Positions 1,587-40,973 of a stretch of 41,234 nucleotides of DNA are shown here, in pieces. The notes below the pieces were generated by a model that was not told the DNA's origin, did no database searches, and worked only from the letters and a program-made list of their open reading frames with translations. The position numbers were made by a program, and so were the translations under genes. Each line of letters opens with the position of its first letter. The stretch's first letter is position 1. Source of the stretch: a virus; IMG/VR virus record IMGVR_UViG_3300028577_000022, positions 1 to 41,234 of that record; one strand, given 5' to 3'.

Positions 1587-1742
1587 CACCGCATGACACC
1601 TCAGCAACGCTGGATCAAGAATCATCCTGAAGAATATCGCGCGATGCGGGCGCGTTGGCGGGACAAGAACCGCGACCGGCTGCGTCGATATAATAAGCTC
1701 TATCAACGCAAGCGCCGGGCCAAAATGCGGAACGGCAAATGA
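1578..1742 (+). CDS. Very small highly basic protein
   Basis: 54 residues from the ATG at 1578, or 49 from the ATG at 1593, which better fits the putative promoter. The body (PQQRWIKNHPEEYRAMRARW, then many Arg/Lys) resembles the short basic N-H-P-E-E-Y-R phage proteins often found beside HNH or resolvase genes. It probably contacts DNA or RNA, but no catalytic motif is visible. Its stop overlaps the RusA start (ATGA-type overlap), so it leads the rightward operon. Confidence 0.6.
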   Translation: MHNHRMTPQQRWIKNHPEEYRAMRARWRDKNRDRLRRYNKLYQRKRRAKMRNGK

Positions 1743-2080
1743 GCCTCATCTTCACCATCCCCATGCCGCCGAGCGTCAATTCCATCTGGCGCCAGGGCAA
1801 GCGCAAGGTCTACCGCAATCCACAATACAAAGCGTGGATGCACAGCGCGGCATGGACAATCCGTTTTTACTCGTGTCTACACGATCCCCTATCTGGCGAC
1901 ACCTTCATCGAGATGAAATTCGGTCCTCGCAATAAAAAGGCCGATCTCGACAATCTTTTGAAGGCGACGATTGACGCGCTCGTGCAGGGCGGTGCGATTA
2001 AAGATGACCGATACGTCAAGAAGCTGACGGCAGAATGGGCCGATGTCCAAGGCTGCCACATCAGGGTGAGCGCGATATGA
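1739..2080 (+). CDS. rusA: RusA-family Holliday junction resolvase
   Basis: 113 residues, close to the usual 110-125 of the family. RusA cuts four-way DNA junctions and lets phages resolve recombination or replication intermediates before packaging. Seen in the sequence: the N-terminal PMPPSVNSIWR segment and the key acidic block KKADLDNLLKATIDAL, followed by GGAIKDDRYV, which together supply the Asp metal ligands. It works naturally with the annealing protein encoded at 38272-39264. It overlaps neighbours by four bases on both sides. Confidence 0.88.
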   Translation: MSLIFTIPMPPSVNSIWRQGKRKVYRNPQYKAWMHSAAWTIRFYSCLHDPLSGDTFIEMKFGPRNKKADLDNLLKATIDALVQGGAIKDDRYVKKLTAEWADVQGCHIRVSAI

Positions 2081-2370
2081 CCGACGATCTTTTATCCTGG
2101 CGCCCTCCGGTCCCTCCGATCTACGATGGCGCTACATACAGTCAGCAGCGCGACGGCAAGCGCCTGAACGCGCAGTGCCAGAAAGTCTTTGACGTGATGA
2201 AAGACGGCCAATGGCGCACACTCAGGGAGATATCGGATATGACGGGCGCGCCGGAGGCATCGGTGTCGGCTAGGCTCCGCGATTTTCGGAAGGTTGCGTT
2301 TCTCAGCGCCAAAGTCGAGCGCGAGTTCGTGCGGCAAGGGCTGCATCGGTATCGGCTGGTGGTGCCGTGA
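2077..2370 (+). CDS. Winged-helix-like phage protein
   Basis: 97 residues from the ATG at 2077, which overlaps the RusA stop; an upstream in-frame ATG at 2035 lies inside rusA and is not needed. Residues about 32-78 (FDVMKDGQWRTLREISDMTG, then EASVSARLRDFRK) fit a winged helix-turn-helix that senses or binds DNA. HRYRLV at the end forms the likely last strand. The family is common beside phage replication and resolvase genes. It may be a local transcription regulator; its role is not proven. Confidence 0.75.
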   Translation: MTDDLLSWRPPVPPIYDGATYSQQRDGKRLNAQCQKVFDVMKDGQWRTLREISDMTGAPEASVSARLRDFRKVAFLSAKVEREFVRQGLHRYRLVVP

Positions 2371-2570
2371 AAGACGTTGACCTCATCAACGCAATTCTTC
2401 TCTGGCGCACTCGGCACATGAACACCGCCCAGATCGCCCGAGAGCTGCGCGTCGATGAGAGCGAAATATGGGCGAAGCTCGATTGCTTCCACCCGAATGA
2501 AAACCTCGGCGCCCACTTCGCGGAGGCCAGCCGCGTGATGAAGGATATATCGTGCGCGAAGAAATCATAG
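2367..2570 (+). CDS. Small helix-turn-helix protein
   Basis: 67 residues with a GTG start at 2367 overlapping the previous stop. Residues 16-37 (RHMNTAQIARELRVDESEIW) have the spacing of a helix-turn-helix that recognises DNA, as in Sigma70 region 4-like or Cro-like folds. There is no other domain. The last 19 bases overlap the methyltransferase gene, giving tight coupling. Confidence 0.65.
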   Translation: MKDVDLINAILLWRTRHMNTAQIARELRVDESEIWAKLDCFHPNENLGAHFAEASRVMKDISCAKKS

Positions 2571-3274
2571 GCGAGTGCAGGCTGATCCTGGGCGACTGTC
2601 GCGAGATTTTGCCGACGCTGGGTAAGGTTGATTGTGTGGTTACGGACCCACCGTATGGCGTAAATTATACAGGAAGCGCAACTCGCCATTCCAATATATC
2701 TGGCAATGGATATATCTCCTTTGAAGATTCGCCTGAGAATATTGAGCGCATCTGCGTTCCCATTATAAAAACGGTCATTAAAATGGCAAAGCGCGTATGC
2801 CTAACGCCGGGCATTCCGAATGCCCGGCGTTATCCAACCCCCGATGGCGAAGGCGTTATTTGGTATCCGAGCGGCGCTAACAGGGGGCCGTGGGGGTTCG
2901 TTACCCATCAGCCTATATATTACTACGGCAAATGTCCTTTTCTCGCCAGTGGGCGCGGCTCTATGCCTACAGGGTTTCAAACGACTGAGCCCGCCGAGGA
3001 AAATGGCCATCCATGTCCCAAACCAATTCGTCAAATGAGTTGGCTGGTTAAGCGCGCCAGTCTTGAGTGCGAGACCGTTTTAGACCCTTTCATGGGCAGC
3101 GGCACCACGGGCGTTGCCTGCGTCAAGCTCGGACGCAAGTTCATCGGCATCGAGATCGAGCCCAAATATTTCGACATTGCGTGCAAGCGGATTGAGGCGG
3201 CTGTCAAAGAACCGCGTCTGCCGCTGCCCGAGCCGAAGATGAAACAGCAATCGCTACTGGACGACACGCGATGA
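2552..3274 (+). CDS. DNA (adenine-N6 or cytosine-N4) methyltransferase
   Basis: 240 residues. DNA methyltransferases of this family move a methyl group from SAM to a base, here probably to shield phage DNA from host restriction or to regulate it. The catalytic DPPY is at residues 32-35, and the SAM-binding FMGSGTTG at 180-187 is followed by GRKFIGIEIEPKYF. Catalytic motif before SAM motif is the beta-class order. The GTG start at 2552 has AAGGA upstream. No restriction partner is seen. The 5' third is AT-richer than its surroundings, hinting at separate acquisition. A 31-nt palindrome lies inside the gene (2802-2832). Confidence 0.9.
   Translation: MREEIIGECRLILGDCREILPTLGKVDCVVTDPPYGVNYTGSATRHSNISGNGYISFEDSPENIERICVPIIKTVIKMAKRVCLTPGIPNARRYPTPDGEGVIWYPSGANRGPWGFVTHQPIYYYGKCPFLASGRGSMPTGFQTTEPAEENGHPCPKPIRQMSWLVKRASLECETVLDPFMGSGTTGVACVKLGRKFIGIEIEPKYFDIACKRIEAAVKEPRLPLPEPKMKQQSLLDDTR
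2802..2832. repeat. 31-nt almost uninterrupted palindrome inside the methyltransferase gene
   Basis: The left arm TAACGCCGGGCATTC (2802-2816), one central C, and the right arm GAATGCCCGGCGTTA (2818-2832) are exact reverse complements over 15 bp. The element encodes residues 84-94 (LTPGIPNARRY) without breaking the frame. It could form a very stable hairpin in mRNA or single-stranded DNA, or bind a dimeric protein. Confidence 0.95.
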
Positions 3275-3468
3275 CATGCTTCGTTGGCCGCCCGAAGCTA
3301 GCCCTGGCCCTGTCTAAACCGCATCGCCAAGCCATTTTAAGGGCTTACCGTGAGCATTCCGCCGGGGAGGTGGTGCTGATGTTCAATCTGCGGGGCAAAA
3401 GCACGGTCTACGACCTCGCCTACCGATCCGGGATGCACAAGATGAAACAGGGTCCGAGGCCGAAATGA
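3271..3468 (+). CDS. Small helix-turn-helix-like protein
   Basis: 65 residues. The segment KPHRQAILRAYREHSAGEVV, followed by GKSTVYDLAYRSG, looks like a helix-turn-helix with a recognition helix near residues 43-55. I do not recognise the family with confidence. It overlaps both neighbours by four bases, typical of this rightward operon. It may regulate its own operon; that is inference from size and fold. Confidence 0.6.
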   Translation: MTCFVGRPKLALALSKPHRQAILRAYREHSAGEVVLMFNLRGKSTVYDLAYRSGMHKMKQGPRPK

Positions 3469-3623
3469 AAGCCGAGATCACGATCAAGAAAGCCCTGCAC
3501 CGCAGCTCGCCAGAGGATCGGTTCAAGCGCCTGATGGCAGACCAGCGGTATCCTGATACCATTCTGAAGCCGACGCTCCAGGTTTATCGCGAGAGCGTGC
3601 CAGTGGAGTTTAGGGAGATATGA
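3465..3623 (+). CDS. Small hypothetical protein
   Basis: 52 residues, start overlapping the previous stop and end overlapping the next start. The sequence is charged (MKAEITIKKALHRSSPEDRF at the start) and includes LMADQRYPDTILKPTLQVYR. No known motif. The perfect overlap pattern on both sides is the main reason to accept it as a gene. Confidence 0.55.
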   Translation: MKAEITIKKALHRSSPEDRFKRLMADQRYPDTILKPTLQVYRESVPVEFREI

Positions 3624-5714: not shown

Positions 5715-5900
5715 TCACGGAGCCTCTGAAGCGGTTTTAAGCAGATACCCGACCACGATGACCACGGCACCCGGTATCTTGCGCTCCCCGGATTCCCACC
5801 GCCGCACGGTACGGCCATGTGTGACCCCCACAGCCCGAGCAAACTCTTCCGCAGACAGGCCGAGGGCCTTGCGGTGAGATTTGAGTTGAGCGGGGGTCAC
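5715..5900 (-). CDS. Cro/CI-type (XRE) helix-turn-helix regulator
   Basis: 61 residues with a GTG start at 5900, coupled to the TGA of the gene upstream. The whole protein is one Xre-family helix-turn-helix: LKSHRKALGLSAEEFARAVG, then GRTVRRWESGERKIPG. SAEEFARAVGVTHGRTVRRW is the two-helix DNA-binding unit. There is no dimerisation or cleavage domain, so it is Cro-like in size. It is last in the 7339-5715 minus operon; the operator-like inverted repeat at 7369-7405 before that operon is a natural target. A truncated copy of its N-terminus lies at 6293-6427. Confidence 0.88.
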   Translation of the reverse strand: MTPAQLKSHRKALGLSAEEFARAVGVTHGRTVRRWESGERKIPGAVVIVVGYLLKTASEAP

Positions 5901-6025: not shown

Positions 6026-6049
6026 GGCGCGTCTCCCGTGTTGATGAGC

Positions 6050-6292: not shown

Positions 6293-6427
6293 ATCCGTGC
6301 TCCCTGTGTTGATGACTACGGCGAGACCGTAGCGACGATCGCCTGCGGTGACCCCTACGGCTCTGGCAAACTCTTCGGCAGACAGGCCAAGGGATTTGCG
6401 GTGCGCCTTCAGTTTAGCGGGGGTCAT
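6293..6427 (-). pseudogene. Truncated copy of the Xre repressor gene
   Basis: From the ATG at 6427 the frame reads MTPAKLKAHRKSLGLSAEEF and ARAVGVT, nearly the same as the first 27 residues of the repressor at 5715-5900. Then similarity stops abruptly, before the recognition helix. The remaining codons (VVINTGSTD) are simply a translation of the start cassette of the next gene, with which it is in frame. It looks like a duplicated repressor cut short by recombination at a cassette; a short fused product cannot be excluded. Confidence 0.75.
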
Positions 6428-7002: not shown

Positions 7003-7169
7003 GTCCTGTCTCCCGTGTTGATGAGATTAATCATCCGCTGTTCGAGCGCGCATATCTGCGCCCATTGTTCGCCCGTTTCCGCTTTGGGGATCAGGCGCTC
7101 AATGCGGCAGCGCAGTTCTTCGACAGTCTCCGGCGCGAAGTGAGCGGATGCGGCGTCGAATGGGTTCAT
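6999..7169 (-). CDS. Small helical hypothetical protein
   Basis: 56 residues from the ATG at 7169, set by the start cassette at 7176-7192. It is helical and polar (APETVEELRCRIERLIPKAE, then QWAQICALEQRMINL), with coiled-coil-like spacing. No homologue is recognised. The end overlaps the next start. Confidence 0.6.
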   Translation of the reverse strand: MNPFDAASAHFAPETVEELRCRIERLIPKAETGEQWAQICALEQRMINLINTGDRT

Positions 7170-7195
7170 ATCCGTGCTCCCTGTGTTGATGATTA

Positions 7196-7339: not shown

Positions 7340-7365
7340 GGCGTCTCTCCTTGGTTGATGACCAG

Positions 7366-25209: not shown

Positions 25210-27413
25210 TGCCCAGTCTCTTCGATCTTCTGATGCAGGGCCAACAGGACCCGTATAGCGGTTCTGGCGGACCTTATGGCGGCCTTCCTACGCCCCCGGA
25301 TTACACCGCTCCGGGCTTGCCTGGGCTTCTGGAGGGGATGAAGGGCAACGTCCCTGTGCAGCCTCCCCAGGCTCCGCCGGATTATACGGCTCCAGGGCTT
25401 CCGGGACTGATTCCGGGCATGAAGGGCAACGTCTCTCCCTACGGCCCACCACAGACCTTCCCAATCCCTCCTGGACAGTATCCGCAGGCCGCCCAACCCC
25501 CGGCGGAAGGGTTGCCACAGCCGCCCGCCGCCCCGCCCGATTCCAATGTTTACAACGGTGCCATTCCGCCGCTTCCAGGCAGGCCCGATACGTCCCTGCC
25601 CACTACCAGGGTAGGCTACGCCCCCGGCAACGCACCCAGGACCCCTCCCGACGCGATTAAAGGCATAATCGCGGACGCAGCTAAGACCGTCGGCGTCGAT
25701 CCGAATATTTTGACCAACATCATCGGTCAGGAAAGCAGTTTTGATCCCAATGCGACGGCCCGACGCAAAGACGGCACGCCGATAGCCCAGGGTCTCGGGC
25801 AGATGACGCCCGATACTTTTAAGGCGTATCTGGCCAAATACGGCGCCCAGTACGGCTTCGGCCCGGACACCTCGCCAACCGATCCAAGGGCGAATGCGCT
25901 GATGACGGCGCATTACATGAAGGACACTCAGGACCTCTTCGAGAAGAACTTCGGGCGTCCGCCAGCCAATCCAGGCGAACTTTACGCGGTCCACGCTCAC
26001 GGGGTGAACGGCGCCAAGATGCTGTTCAACGCCCCGCCCGATACTTCGATGAAAACCCTGGTCCCTTCGGCTTTCGACAAGAGCCGGTCTGACTACACTC
26101 CGATTACGGAAGCGCAGTTTTCGGTTAAGGACCCGGCGACGGGCCAGACTCGCCCGCTTACTGTGGCCGAATATAAGGATCGGCTGAACCGCATTGCCTC
26201 CGGAACAGGCCCCACGATGGCCGGGGCGCCTCCGGGGATGCCTCCAGGCACCCCAGGTTCCCCGCCTAATGTTTCACGTGAAACACCACCGGGGATGCCA
26301 TCTCTGCCCCCAGGCACCCCAACTGTACCGGACTTGCCGGGCGTTCAAGACGTGAACACCAGCATCAATTTCGGCAAGAACGCCCCTGTCTGGTCCACCT
26401 TGGCCAACATCGGCGCGGGGATGATTAACACGCCCCGTCATCTTGGGGTGCTGGGCGCCATCGGGTCGGGCTTGCAGCAGGGCGTTAAGAACCTGAACGA
26501 GATTCCGACGCGGCAGCTACAGCAGGTCTTGGCTCAGACTCAAATCGGCACCGCAAACATGACGATGCAGCAGAAACTTTCCCTGCTGAATTGGGCACAG
26601 AAACTTCCGCCCGGCGATGGCCGCCGCGATGTCATTATGGCGAGCCTCGCGGGGGTCACGCGCGATCTCGGCGTGTTCGCCTCAAGCCTGCCTGCCGGTA
26701 CCCGCTACAATGCAGAGGGCAAAATCGAGACGATTCCAGGCGCCACATCGACTACGGCGGAGATGGAAGGCACGAAAGAGGGCGTCAAAGATACGTTTGC
26801 CAGCGTCAAAGAGTCTGGCGAACATGCGATGGCTGCCACGAACATTCTCGATATCTCACAAAAGATTCGCAATCTTTTGCCGCAGATCAGCGGACAGGTT
26901 GGCTGGCAGGCCGATACTCTGGCGCAGGGCCGCTCTTTGCTAGGGCGCATGGGGTTTGAGGATTCGGATAAGATTGCGCCTTATGAAGTCGCCAAGAAAT
27001 TGCTCACGCAACTTTCCGCGAATTACGCCAAATCTCTTGGGCAGTCTCGCGTCACCAATGCCGAGTTGATTACCAGCCAGCTCGCGAACGCTAATCAGAA
27101 CATGCAGCCGGACGCCATTAAAGGGGCGCTTGATGCGACGGAGTCGGAGGCTCAAAAGGTCATTGATTATCACCACGGAAAATTGGATTACGCGCAATCC
27201 CACAACGGCCTGTTGCGTGACTCCACCGGCTCTTATGACCAGCAGTGGCTCAAGTCTCGCGGATATCTGAAGGGCGCTCCGGCCTCTCCGCCAGCGAATG
27301 CATCGCCTGATAACGTCATCCCGAAGCTGCCGGAAGATGCGAAGCCTGTTGTCCGCAACGGTCGCAATCTTTTCTATTCGATGAAAACCGGCAAGTACTA
27401 TGAGCCGCAGTGA
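25209..27413 (+). CDS. Internal virion protein with lytic transglycosylase domain
   Basis: 734 residues. Its soluble lytic transglycosylase domain (about 153-290) cuts cell-wall glycan to let the ejection apparatus pass. The catalytic Glu175 lies in GQESSFDPNA, with GLGQMTPDTFKAYLAKYG and ELYAVHAHGVNGAKML after it. Residues 1-150 are Pro/Gly-rich with a 57-bp direct repeat (25296-25352 and 25377-25433, PPDYTAPGLPGL). A second Pro/Gly linker (about 330-375) contains the perfect parS sequence. The rest is helical, as in gp16-like ejection proteins. The second of the ejection-type gene trio. Confidence 0.86.
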   Translation: MPSLFDLLMQGQQDPYSGSGGPYGGLPTPPDYTAPGLPGLLEGMKGNVPVQPPQAPPDYTAPGLPGLIPGMKGNVSPYGPPQTFPIPPGQYPQAAQPPAEGLPQPPAAPPDSNVYNGAIPPLPGRPDTSLPTTRVGYAPGNAPRTPPDAIKGIIADAAKTVGVDPNILTNIIGQESSFDPNATARRKDGTPIAQGLGQMTPDTFKAYLAKYGAQYGFGPDTSPTDPRANALMTAHYMKDTQDLFEKNFGRPPANPGELYAVHAHGVNGAKMLFNAPPDTSMKTLVPSAFDKSRSDYTPITEAQFSVKDPATGQTRPLTVAEYKDRLNRIASGTGPTMAGAPPGMPPGTPGSPPNVSRETPPGMPSLPPGTPTVPDLPGVQDVNTSINFGKNAPVWSTLANIGAGMINTPRHLGVLGAIGSGLQQGVKNLNEIPTRQLQQVLAQTQIGTANMTMQQKLSLLNWAQKLPPGDGRRDVIMASLAGVTRDLGVFASSLPAGTRYNAEGKIETIPGATSTTAEMEGTKEGVKDTFASVKESGEHAMAATNILDISQKIRNLLPQISGQVGWQADTLAQGRSLLGRMGFEDSDKIAPYEVAKKLLTQLSANYAKSLGQSRVTNAELITSQLANANQNMQPDAIKGALDATESEAQKVIDYHHGKLDYAQSHNGLLRDSTGSYDQQWLKSRGYLKGAPASPPANASPDNVIPKLPEDAKPVVRNGRNLFYSMKTGKYYEPQ
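26270..26285. promoter_or_regulatory. parS: Perfect parS centromere site (TGTTTCACGTGAAACA)
   Basis: The 16-bp palindrome TGTTTCACGTGAAACA equals the bacterial chromosomal ParB-binding consensus (TGTTNCACGTGAAACA). It codes residues 355-359 and the last base of 354 (NVSRET) inside a Pro/Gly repeat linker, using TCA, CGT and ACA codons that fit the DNA motif rather than the neighbours' GC-rich choice. Chance expectation for one exact 16-mer in 41 kb is about one in 100,000. No parA or parB is encoded, so host ParB would have to bind it. Confidence 0.88.
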
Positions 27414-34297: not shown

Positions 34298-34533
34298 TTG
34301 ATTGTCAGATCGGCGGCTAATCCTGATCGCCATTTTTGGTCGTCAGTCAACTCGCCAATGTCACCTGGGTGCATTTCGTCAGGCCGACACAGCACTCGGT
34401 GGCCCGCGAGATATTCAATCATGTCGTCCCAATCCCGCTGCCGCGGCACGTTTTCAGAGATGAAACTGAATTGAAGCTCGGAATCAGAGATTTTCAATTT
34501 GAATGGACGATTTTTGCGGACGCAGACCGTCAT
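34294..34533 (-). CDS. Small hypothetical protein
   Basis: 79 residues from the ATG at 34533, sharing one base with the upstream stop. Basic strand-rich start (MTVCVRKNRPFKLKISDSEL), then RDWDDMIEYLAGHRVLCRPD and an acidic/polar end. No family recognised. It lies between the nucleotidyltransferase and a membrane peptide. Confidence 0.6.
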   Translation of the reverse strand: MTVCVRKNRPFKLKISDSELQFSFISENVPRQRDWDDMIEYLAGHRVLCRPDEMHPGDIGELTDDQKWRSGLAADLTIK

Positions 34534-35300
34534 CACCCCACCCCATCCATCTCACGCGCGCGGTCCCAATGGCTGTATGATGCCTGGACCATGAATTTGT
34601 TGATCGTGTCGGTGTCGGCGGCGATCAGGCATCGCTCCACGAGCGCGCGCAATTCGATCTCGGTGCTCTCGATCAATGCCAATGTTTCGGCGAGCGAAAG
34701 CTTGCCTGCACGAACAGCTCGGAGTGTCGATAGATTCGGCTCGGCGACGGGCAGTGTTAGGCGCCTCTGCGTCAGATATTCGATGCCCTCGAATCCAAGA
34801 CGCAATGCGTGCATCGCGAATTTGGTATCGTAGCCATACTTTTCGACCAATTCAGGGCGGTTTACCTTCTGGTTGCGCTCGCCGGTTAGCGACTTTTTCT
34901 GTCCGGTGAGGTATCCGAGAAACCGCCATCCGGCTTCGCGGCTCACGAAAGCTTCCCGGATATCAAGCAGTCCGCGCCCCAATTCCGTTTTGATGATGTG
35001 CTCCGGCAGCCAAAGCAAAACCAACACGGACGGATTGCCCTGCGCAGCGAGGCGACAGAATTTTCGCAGGCTGTAGATCGTCAGGTCCAAGTCACCCGGA
35101 CCGCTGCGCACACCCTCGGGTTTGTCACGATAGATATAGTGTTCAAAAAGCGAGAGACCGCACACATACTCGGGCGGCTCCATGCAGACGCCCATTTCAT
35201 CGCGGTCGTCCTGGCCTTCGATAGCTGTGCCGTGCGCGGTTGAGCCAACAACGCCGCGCAGAATTTCGTTTGACAGGGCCAACATTCGTTTATCGGTCAT
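34533..35300 (-). CDS. RlaP-type nucleotidyltransferase-like protein
   Basis: 255 residues. The pol-beta-type core is visible: GVVGSTAHGT (19-25) with the GS signature, QDDRDEMGV (30-38) carrying the metal-binding Asp pair, and DLDLTIYSLRKFCRLAAQGN (third acidic strand). NPSVLVLLWLP and the later GYDTKFAMHALRLGFEGIEY are typical of the YcgL/RlaP superfamily (PF10127-like) known in phages. Family members transfer nucleotides to RNA, proteins or small molecules; substrate here is unknown. It might modify host tRNA or proteins, or act in counter-defence. All core residues appear intact. Confidence 0.8.
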   Translation of the reverse strand: MTDKRMLALSNEILRGVVGSTAHGTAIEGQDDRDEMGVCMEPPEYVCGLSLFEHYIYRDKPEGVRSGPGDLDLTIYSLRKFCRLAAQGNPSVLVLLWLPEHIIKTELGRGLLDIREAFVSREAGWRFLGYLTGQKKSLTGERNQKVNRPELVEKYGYDTKFAMHALRLGFEGIEYLTQRRLTLPVAEPNLSTLRAVRAGKLSLAETLALIESTEIELRALVERCLIAADTDTINKFMVQASYSHWDRAREMDGVG

Positions 35301-38282: not shown

Positions 38283-39264
38283 CGGGGATCAGTGTTTTCA
38301 GCCTCATTCCGAACGCCTTGCGGAGCATCTTCATTTCCGCGTCCGTGAAATTGGCCTTCCGGTTTTTGATGTCCGTGCCGATCACCTCCAACTCCGCCTG
38401 AGTCTCGGCGATGTCCATGCGGTCAAGCAGAGCCTCGGCGGCGGACGTGATGGGCGATTGGGAAGGAGGCTCCGCCGTAGAATTCCGAACCGGCGGAGCC
38501 TCCGGGCTACCGGCGTCATTGCCGGCGCTTTCGATGACGGGCGGACGGTTGGCGAATTTCTTCTCCAGCTTCGACTTGTGGTCTTCATAACGCTGGAGCG
38601 TCACGTCCGCGTAATTCAGGCCCGCGCCATTGGATGCGGCCCCCTCAGCTTTGGCGAGGAAGTCTTGGACCTCCGGCGATTGCCAGAACGCAAGCAACAT
38701 GTCGGGATCGCCGCACGCCTCGATTTCGTCCGCGAGCCGGTCGGCCTCGGCCTTGATCGGATTGCCGCGCTGGCCTTCGACTTTTACGGCGCCGGGAATC
38801 GTCTCGACCTCGGTTTCATCCAAAAGCCCGAGGCCACAGTGAGCCAGCACCGTCCGTCGAATGGCCTTGGTCGTGGCCTTCAAGAGGGCATTGGACAATG
38901 CCTCGCCTTTGAGGCTGCCGAGTGGCACGGCGCCCATGTTCTCGCTGAACCGCCCCTCTTTGTCCGTCACGCGCGCCTCGACACAGTAGATGTCGTCGAT
39001 CTTTTCCCGCTTCGTGATCTGGACGGACAGGCCCCGTGTCTGGCAAAGCTGCTGCGTCGCCCCTGCCGTGGCGTACAGGACTTCTTTGCCGTTGAGCCGG
39101 AGCAACTGGAACGGCTGCGCGGCGGGGTCCAAGCCAACCTGCTTACAGCGATAGGCCACGTACTGAAGCTTCTGCGCTGGCGTCAGCCGCCCGACATCGC
39201 CGTTGAGCACAAGGTTTTCGACGATCTTGGGGTCGAGTTCATCGCGGGTGACGAGTTGGTTCAT
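38272..39264 (-). CDS. Putative single-strand annealing recombinase (RecT/Erf-like)
   Basis: 330 residues. The core (about 25-155) has LTPAQKLQYVAYRCKQVGLD, then PFQLLRLNGKEVLYATAGAT, GLSVQITKREKIDDIYCVEA, LGSLKGEALSNALLKATTKA and IRRTVLAHCGLGLLDETEVE. This is the pattern of a phage recombinase/annealing family that pairs homologous single strands. The C-terminal half is a linker with Ser/Pro/Glu (SPEAPPVRNSTAEPPSQSP) and a helical tail. With RusA it makes a phage recombination pathway; no 5' exonuclease partner is evident. The family name is tentative. Confidence 0.7.
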   Translation of the reverse strand: MNQLVTRDELDPKIVENLVLNGDVGRLTPAQKLQYVAYRCKQVGLDPAAQPFQLLRLNGKEVLYATAGATQQLCQTRGLSVQITKREKIDDIYCVEARVTDKEGRFSENMGAVPLGSLKGEALSNALLKATTKAIRRTVLAHCGLGLLDETEVETIPGAVKVEGQRGNPIKAEADRLADEIEACGDPDMLLAFWQSPEVQDFLAKAEGAASNGAGLNYADVTLQRYEDHKSKLEKKFANRPPVIESAGNDAGSPEAPPVRNSTAEPPSQSPITSAAEALLDRMDIAETQAELEVIGTDIKNRKANFTDAEMKMLRKAFGMRLKTLIPDAA

Positions 39265-40358: not shown

Positions 40359-40973
40359 CTACTCCGCCGCCAGTTTTGTGGTGACCGTGGCCTTCATCGC
40401 TGGCCATTTGCCTTTCGGCCACCCCCTGAGGCACGCCAGGAAGTGCTTTGTTTGGGCGGCCCAGGCGGCGGCCCAGGCGTCGGTGGCCCAGGCGGCGTCT
40501 CCGGCGGCGGCGATGGCCCTGGCGGCGGCCCAGGCGGTCCCGGCGGCCCAGGCGGCGGCCACGGCGGCGGCCCTGGCGGCGGCCCAGGCGGCGTCCCCGG
40601 CGGCCCCGGCGGCGTCCCCGGCGGCGTCCCCGGCGGCCACGGCGGCGGCCCTGGCGGCGTCCAATTCTTCCTTCGTCGCTTTCTTTTTCAGAAAGCGCTC
40701 TACCACGTCGTTGCACGCCTTTACGCGCGGATCGGTGCTTAGGTGTTCGACCGAGCGCGCGAAATCGAGCGCGAGGCGCCGCGCGAACCAATCGACGTTA
40801 TCGACCGCGCGCAGGCACCACAGCGCGTCGTCCAATCCGTTCGATTCCAGGATCGTGGCGAGCGACAGCCGCGCGTTGTCCGGTTTTGTCTTACCGAGCG
40901 CCTTGAGCAATTTGCGCCAGCCGCCTTCACACGGATCATGCGCGCGGATTTTTTCGAGCGTCGTATAGAGCAT
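40359..40973 (-). CDS. Alanine-repeat phage protein (AAGDAAWA type)
   Basis: 204 residues from the ATG at 40973, coupled to the junction gene. The N-terminus (MLYTTLEKIRAHDPCEGGWR, then KLLKALGKTKPDNARLSLAT and ILESNGLDDALWCLRAVDN) is a conserved domain I know from many phages and prophages. Residues about 113-175 are an array of AAGDAAGDAAGAAGDAAWAA-type units encoded by GC-rich triplets. A short end (TKHFLACLRGWPKGKWPAMK) follows. Function unknown. Array length probably varies by slippage. Confidence 0.85.
   Translation of the reverse strand: MLYTTLEKIRAHDPCEGGWRKLLKALGKTKPDNARLSLATILESNGLDDALWCLRAVDNVDWFARRLALDFARSVEHLSTDPRVKACNDVVERFLKKKATKEELDAARAAAVAAGDAAGDAAGAAGDAAWAAARAAAVAAAWAAGTAWAAARAIAAAGDAAWATDAWAAAWAAQTKHFLACLRGWPKGKWPAMKATVTTKLAAE

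Follow-up and report, generated by a model that had tools for sequence, protein, structure and literature searches.

A perfect 31-nt palindrome inside a phage DNA methyltransferase gene, possibly the product of a quasi-palindrome template switch

The methyltransferase gene and its palindrome

The window analyzed here (the whole stretch of virus DNA, 41,234 bases) carries terminase, portal and major head genes downstream of a DNA methyltransferase gene, which together indicate a tailed-phage genome. A search for near-identical phage records with positions 1-25000 of the window as query returned no match. A gene for a RusA-type endonuclease lies upstream of the methyltransferase gene, and a nucleotidyltransferase gene (phrog_388, E 3.9e-52) is found on the minus strand at 34533-35300. 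The features needed for what follows are these:

1739-2080: RusA-type Holliday-junction endonuclease gene (PF05866, E 2.1e-12), ending 0.5 kb upstream of the methyltransferase gene
2552-3274, plus strand: DNA methyltransferase gene (N6_N4_Mtase), GTG start, 240 aa, from the ORF list, Pfam and PHROG
2802-2816, plus strand: 5' arm of the palindrome, TAACGCCGGGCATTC, codon 84 base 2 to codon 89 base 1 (..L T P G I..)
2817, plus strand: single-base spacer C, the middle base of codon 89
2818-2832, plus strand: 3' arm of the palindrome, GAATGCCCGGCGTTA, codon 89 base 3 to codon 94 base 2 (..N A R R Y..)

Judged by its domain and motif content, the palindrome-bearing gene is a phage N6/N4 DNA methyltransferase: residues 148-210 match PF01555 (E 1.2e-23; 84.7 bits vs. 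a cut-off of 26.7), residues 3-227 match the DNA methyltransferase family phrog_67 (E 1.2e-49), and the motifs DPPYG (D32-G36) and DPFMG (D178-G182) are both intact and invariant across 14 aligned sequences. An AlphaFold2 model of the enzyme (mean pLDDT 80.9) predicts coil over residues 85-98, interrupted by a short helix at 91-93, and strands on either side at 79-84 and 99-104; the model contributes nothing decisive.

A first-pass annotation of this DNA had described a 31-nt palindrome with 15-bp arms and one central base at 2802-2832, within codons 84-94 of the methyltransferase frame, and both the symmetry and its location hold. The arms are 100% complementary, forming a perfect inverted repeat with a short spacer (15-1-15 around C2817), and ORF 2552-3274 places the whole between codon 84 base 2 and codon 94 base 2, where it encodes the peptide LTPGIPNARRY. 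Codon 89 is the centre: its C gives CCG (Pro), and the same base inverted to G would give CGG (Arg). Around it the codons mirror one another in the pairs Thr85/Arg93, Pro86/Arg92, Gly87/Ala91 and Ile88/Asn90, and 9 of the 15 base pairs fall outside codons 91-92. The second-best perfect inverted repeat in the whole window, at spacers of 0-10, has 9-bp arms; with a wider spacer (13) there is a perfect 13-bp pair at 38465-38503.

The annotation had also supposed that coding DNA would seldom hold such symmetry by chance, and here the calculations agree with it. With the peptide fixed and the codon usage taken from the window's 29 ORFs, the exact probability of pairing at 15 of 15 positions is 9.5e-6, and 11-residue stretches that could encode a palindrome at the same codon phase number 3 among 8261 in those ORFs, the present one included. 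The peptides of 18 relatives with a TPG-like motif could attain at most 13 pairs. When the 25.8 kb of ORFs were shuffled synonymously 200 times and permuted by codon 200 times, no arm of at least 14 arose; by extrapolation, the expected number of arms of at least 15 is 1.4e-3 under synonymous shuffling (a figure inflated because these shuffles retain the palindrome's own peptide) and 7e-5 under codon permutation. On these estimates the palindrome is unlikely within one window; it is rare per window, in figures that take no account of selection among many windows.

We therefore treat chance as a serious rival to the template switch considered below: residues tolerated in a variable loop could have come to be encoded by codons that mirror one another by luck, with the site standing out because many windows were looked through. 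Under this explanation both the palindrome-capable peptide and the codon choice (about 1e-5) must coincide, and the 400 ORF shuffles without an arm of at least 14, together with the scarcity of such arms elsewhere, argue against it. Arms of at least 14 with spacers of 0-8 occur once in 260 non-redundant loci totalling 2.37 Mb (a locus was removed if more than 10% of its 31-mers were common to a longer locus). The single case, on a Bacteroidales contig (L144), is a perfect 16-1-16 palindrome at 696-728.

The same survey also bears on whether tight palindromes are generally in excess. An order-1 Markov comparison over the 260 loci (spacer 0-8) gave 35 arms of at least 11 vs. 3 expected, a hint of general excess that we dropped, since an order-4 model at spacers of 0-3 in the 186 viral loci (1.97 Mb) gave no clear excess: 26 observed vs. 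19.0 expected for arms of at least 10, 9 vs. 6.0 for at least 11, 2 vs. 1.5 for at least 12 and 0 vs. 1.0 for at least 13. At spacers of 4-8 in the same 186 loci the order-4 model did leave some excess (16 vs. 7.0 for at least 11; 8 vs. 1.5 for at least 12). Because the screening behind the site may be wide and tight palindromes are not clearly enriched, coincidence keeps a substantial share of our belief, even if we incline to doubt it.

Relatives, copies and regulatory signals

Relatives of the enzyme were collected by scanning viral_contigs with the methyltransferase gene, with an alignment and with the relatives L003 and L195, and by a further scan of genome_contigs. The viral_contigs candidates were the best 80 of 134 and the best 80 of at least 592 in two of the scans and 14 and 41 loci in the other two; those from genome_contigs were the best 80 of 163, and terminase-fetched loci were searched as well. 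To be counted, a relative had to carry Trp-Gly at alignment columns 114-115 and a distinct local peptide, which left 34; the column, pair and base-identity counts below refer to the 29 of these that are ungapped over the palindrome. Among the matches listed, the closest relatives (L003 and L195/L336) are 58% identical. The 397 genomes of one bacterial order yielded two matches at E <= 1e-35, both 39% identical.

It had been proposed that the palindrome is an inserted mobile element, tolerated in a part of the enzyme that varies among homologs. Small mobile palindromes that insert repeatedly are known (the Rickettsia palindromic elements, REP and MITE), and the present case resembles them in having palindromic DNA inside a reading frame; it differs in being a single copy and in showing no insertion. 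In the protein alignment, 29 of the 34 distinct relatives (among the matches listed) are ungapped over residues 84-94, and the five gapped ones, which lack TPG, differ in length by one residue (L004, L012, L016 and L350) or by six (L233). The search for the arm sequence found no second copy in the record, in viral_contigs or in genome_contigs: within the record there is no other 14-nt arm at up to one mismatch, and the 29-mer and the 21-mer core (centre base free) gave 0 matches in viral_contigs, as did the 21-mer core in genome_contigs, in scans that may omit records very near the window. A 42-nt BLAST query against phages and plasmids produced partial matches only (E >= 0.5). The symmetry alone speaks for an insert comparable to the in-frame elements of Rickettsia, and we dismissed a mobile palindrome of the RPE, REP or MITE type, for which we found neither dispersed copies nor an insertion relative to homologs, as having almost no probability.

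The residues under the two arms differ in how well they are shared. Across the 29 ungapped relatives, exact TPG is present in 17 (L005, L052, L060, L067 and L086, among the 12 without it, may be loosely aligned), with Thr85 in 20, Pro86 in 19 and Gly87 in 25. At column 89 the commonest residue is Arg (14/29), and Pro occurs in 2; 12 relatives have Asn at column 90 and 24 have Tyr at column 94. Most relatives (21 of the 29) carry Leu, Met or Ile at column 91, where 2 carry Ala; at column 92, 21 carry Trp, His or Phe (Trp being the commonest) and a single one carries Arg. At the level of bases, the 5' arm agrees with the 29 relatives at an average of 8.24 of 15 positions and the 3' arm at 5.66 of 15, with per-base values of 0.07, 0.10 and 0.03 for codon 91 (GCC). 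The peptide IPNARR is found in none of the relatives gathered (among the matches listed).

Fit to the family was scored against a profile of 29 of the 34 relatives, gapped ones included (L052, L060, L067, L086 and L233 were left out). With the score summed over residues 91-92, the present enzyme comes third from the bottom among 30 members, above only L350 and L016, which are gapped there; residues 89-92 rank as the 25th worst of 219 four-residue stretches, so that a deviation of this size is not unusual for this methyltransferase.

The DNA symmetry is not a family trait: counted over the same 15 pairs, the 29 relatives average 4.31 (maximum 8), vs. 4.09 (sd 1.59 per pairing) in a control that joined the left arm of one relative to the right arm of another. 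A leftover of ancestral symmetry is thus absent among these methyltransferases. The two nearest relatives, with 5 and 6 of the 15 pairs, lie near the control mean, which is compatible with coincidence; so is the presence of Ala91 and of Arg92 each in at least one relative, with the remaining residues also found among relatives.

Two putative promoter-like sites, both matches to a sigma-70-like consensus, lie just left of the palindrome:

2762-2789, minus strand: TTGCCA-16-TATAAT, 11/12
2757-2784, plus strand: a weaker site, 9/12

These sites bear on another possibility, that the palindrome is a selected, lineage-specific regulatory element. It might be bound by a protein, either a regulator or the methyltransferase itself, or might act as a hairpin in the mRNA. 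The strongest version would make it a candidate operator or activator site of an in-gene antisense promoter at 2789-2762: the minus-strand match, 13 nt from the left arm, is the only site of at least 11/12 in the record, and transcription beginning from it at about 2755 (hand count) would have the palindrome centred near -62, a position compatible with an activator. The weaker plus-strand match beside it and a symmetry that is exact across 15 bp also favor regulation. Sites of at least 11/12 appeared in 1 of 10 simulated records and in 8 of 3000 simulated local stretches (composition of 2680-2801, 42% GC). Over 1700-3500 as a whole, however, the consensus scan gave these two sites vs. 1.1 expected, and their closeness to the palindrome was noticed post hoc. 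Of 20 relatives, none has a minus-strand match at the same place and only L169 has a plus-strand one, which is weak (9/12), and the 29 relatives lack the symmetry, at 4.31 pairs beside the 4.09 of the control. Nor does the record hold further copies of the palindrome or an excess of half-sites: near-copies of the 11-nt arm core number 32, both arms included, vs. 27.3 expected, a chance level, on which repeated protein-binding half-sites in this phage were rejected.

The mRNA hairpin, which had likewise been suggested at the outset, is physically plausible: the fold of the 91-nt stretch is stable (-38.6 kcal/mol, z -3.5), and it counts in favor of a regulatory role; against it, the hairpin has no terminator tail, Rfam match or conservation. 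Within 1700-3500 a terminator-like site is present only at 2375, and an intrinsic terminator or a known RNA family was ruled out, given the missing T run and the missing Rfam match. It is the promoter-like neighbor that keeps a lineage-specific regulatory site, which we think unlikely on balance, among the candidates.

A template switch as the tentative explanation

The explanation to which we give the most weight, still tentatively, is that a single quasi-palindrome template switch, since fixed, produced the palindrome by copying the 5' arm over the 3' arm. Such an event would account in one step for the perfect symmetry, for the conserved length over residues 84-94, and for a 5' arm that is conserved beside a 3' arm that deviates (A91 in 2/29, R92 in 1/29 and P89 in 2/29). 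Several observations weigh against it: a deviation like that of residues 89-92 is not unusual for this enzyme, tight palindromes are not clearly enriched in the 1.97 Mb of viral loci, so that template switching leaves no general footprint there, and the promoter-like match 13 nt away must be a coincidence of a kind seen in 8 of 3000 simulated stretches.

The course of events might have been as follows. The ancestor would have carried a partly symmetric stretch, in which the 9 pairs outside codons 91-92 may have pre-existed and an ancestral Trp (TGG) at codon 92 would have supplied two more (hand count); a mismatched block of 4, contiguous if the ancestral codon 91 was, e.g., Met, would then have lain between outer arms of 7 and inner ones of 4. 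During replication the nascent strand would have either folded back on itself or moved over to the sister strand, and the 5' arm (the TPG-I codons) would have served as the template that overwrote the 3' arm, replacing the mostly hydrophobic-aromatic residue pair of the relatives with Ala-Arg and keeping both length and frame. Optionally, the 1-nt spacer could have been inverted from G to C, changing Arg to Pro at residue 89; this inversion is not required, since one of the two nearest relatives (L003) carries Ala rather than Arg at this position. The outcome is what the gene shows today, an in-frame, perfect 15-1-15 palindrome; the stretch that holds it is mostly coil and flanked by two predicted strands, and the catalytic motifs are undamaged. 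The palindrome itself would probably be without a function of its own. Because the closest relatives are only 58% identical, the imperfect ancestral repeat is inferred, its parent allele being absent from the sample.

Conversion of imperfect into perfect inverted repeats by template switching is described for E. coli in PMC7202029, which also cites T4 rIIB and yeast CYC1 as cases of quasi-palindrome mutation. These cases resemble the present one in being in-gene perfect repeats, compatible with the copying of one arm at unchanged length; they differ in that the imperfect parent of the present palindrome is unobserved and its gene is known only from a virus contig. For yeast coding genes, PMC8604942 describes arm homogenization and spacer inversion with perfect arms of up to 16 bp: in REG2, the two together gave 16-bp arms around a 5-bp spacer and five altered residues, and SPO75 undergoes recurrent spacer flips. 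With the REG2 type our palindrome shares long and perfect coding arms, adjacent residues that would have changed within a single arm, a possibly inverted spacer and a preference for short spacers. In yeast, however, the strain phylogeny shows the event (PMC8604942), whereas here it is inferred from relatives at no more than 58% identity.

The mitochondrial genes of Nematomorpha offer another parallel, in that perfect inverted repeats lie in coding sequence that is translated and not processed out, with template switching as a possible mechanism (PMC6649704). The Nematomorpha palindromes are numerous, up to 284 bp long, and carry conserved residues from both arms; ours is single, 31 nt long and conserved in one arm only. 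PMC8794818 and PMC13155455 provided further background. The titles and abstract openings listed by our literature searches contained no description of the present site or of a naturally fixed case in a phage.

By analogy with the SPO75 spacer flip (PMC8604942), the palindrome could be imagined as a flip switch, a hypothetical inversion of the centre base toggling residue 89 between Pro (CCG) and Arg (CGG), so that phage populations would carry two forms of the enzyme; we rate this as very improbable.

An artefact of sequencing, amplification or assembly, such as fold-back copying during library preparation, must also be weighed. Fold-back errors can make perfect palindromes, the sequence comes from a virus contig, and the palindrome was not found a second time. 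On the other side, length and frame are kept and the protein is normal past the palindrome, when an artefact would usually duplicate or truncate; we hold this explanation to be highly doubtful.

If the template switch is the right explanation, a single error of the polymerase replaced several neighboring residues of a phage enzyme together, and the gene would be a case, fixed in nature and in a phage, of a process that has been described for reporters in E. coli and for genes of yeast. A striking in-gene palindrome need not be a mobile element, and this one is a good specimen rather than a new kind of element.

Other repeats and palindromes in the window

G+C-rich tandem arrays at 278-419 and 40455-40659, one close to each end of the record, encode alanine-rich stretches of minus-strand frames; the two proteins showed no significant similarity to each other in BLASTP (E 17).

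A perfect 16-bp palindrome, TGTTTCACGTGAAACA, at 26270-26285, identical in sequence to the canonical parS of bacterial chromosomes, lies in a Pro/Gly-rich linker of a 734-aa frame with transglycosylase and tail matches, where it codes for N-V-S-R-E-T. It is the only plus-strand-read site at up to 3 mismatches in the window, and it is found as well in L341, in L350 and in at least 120 stretches of viral_contigs.

Five near-copies of TCATCAACACNGGNG span 1.33 kb among small minus-strand frames, all on the minus strand (6033-6047, 6301-6315, 7010-7024, 7178-7192 and 7347-7361). At up to 2 mismatches the whole window holds 10 matches vs. 0.98 expected, and the sequence is possibly a repeated translation-start or promoter element. 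A 79-nt direct repeat (5821-5899 and 6348-6426, 82% identical) lies in two like-reading minus-strand frames, the first of which matches helix-turn-helix models; from its sequence, the second looks like the same domain shortened and joined to another sequence.
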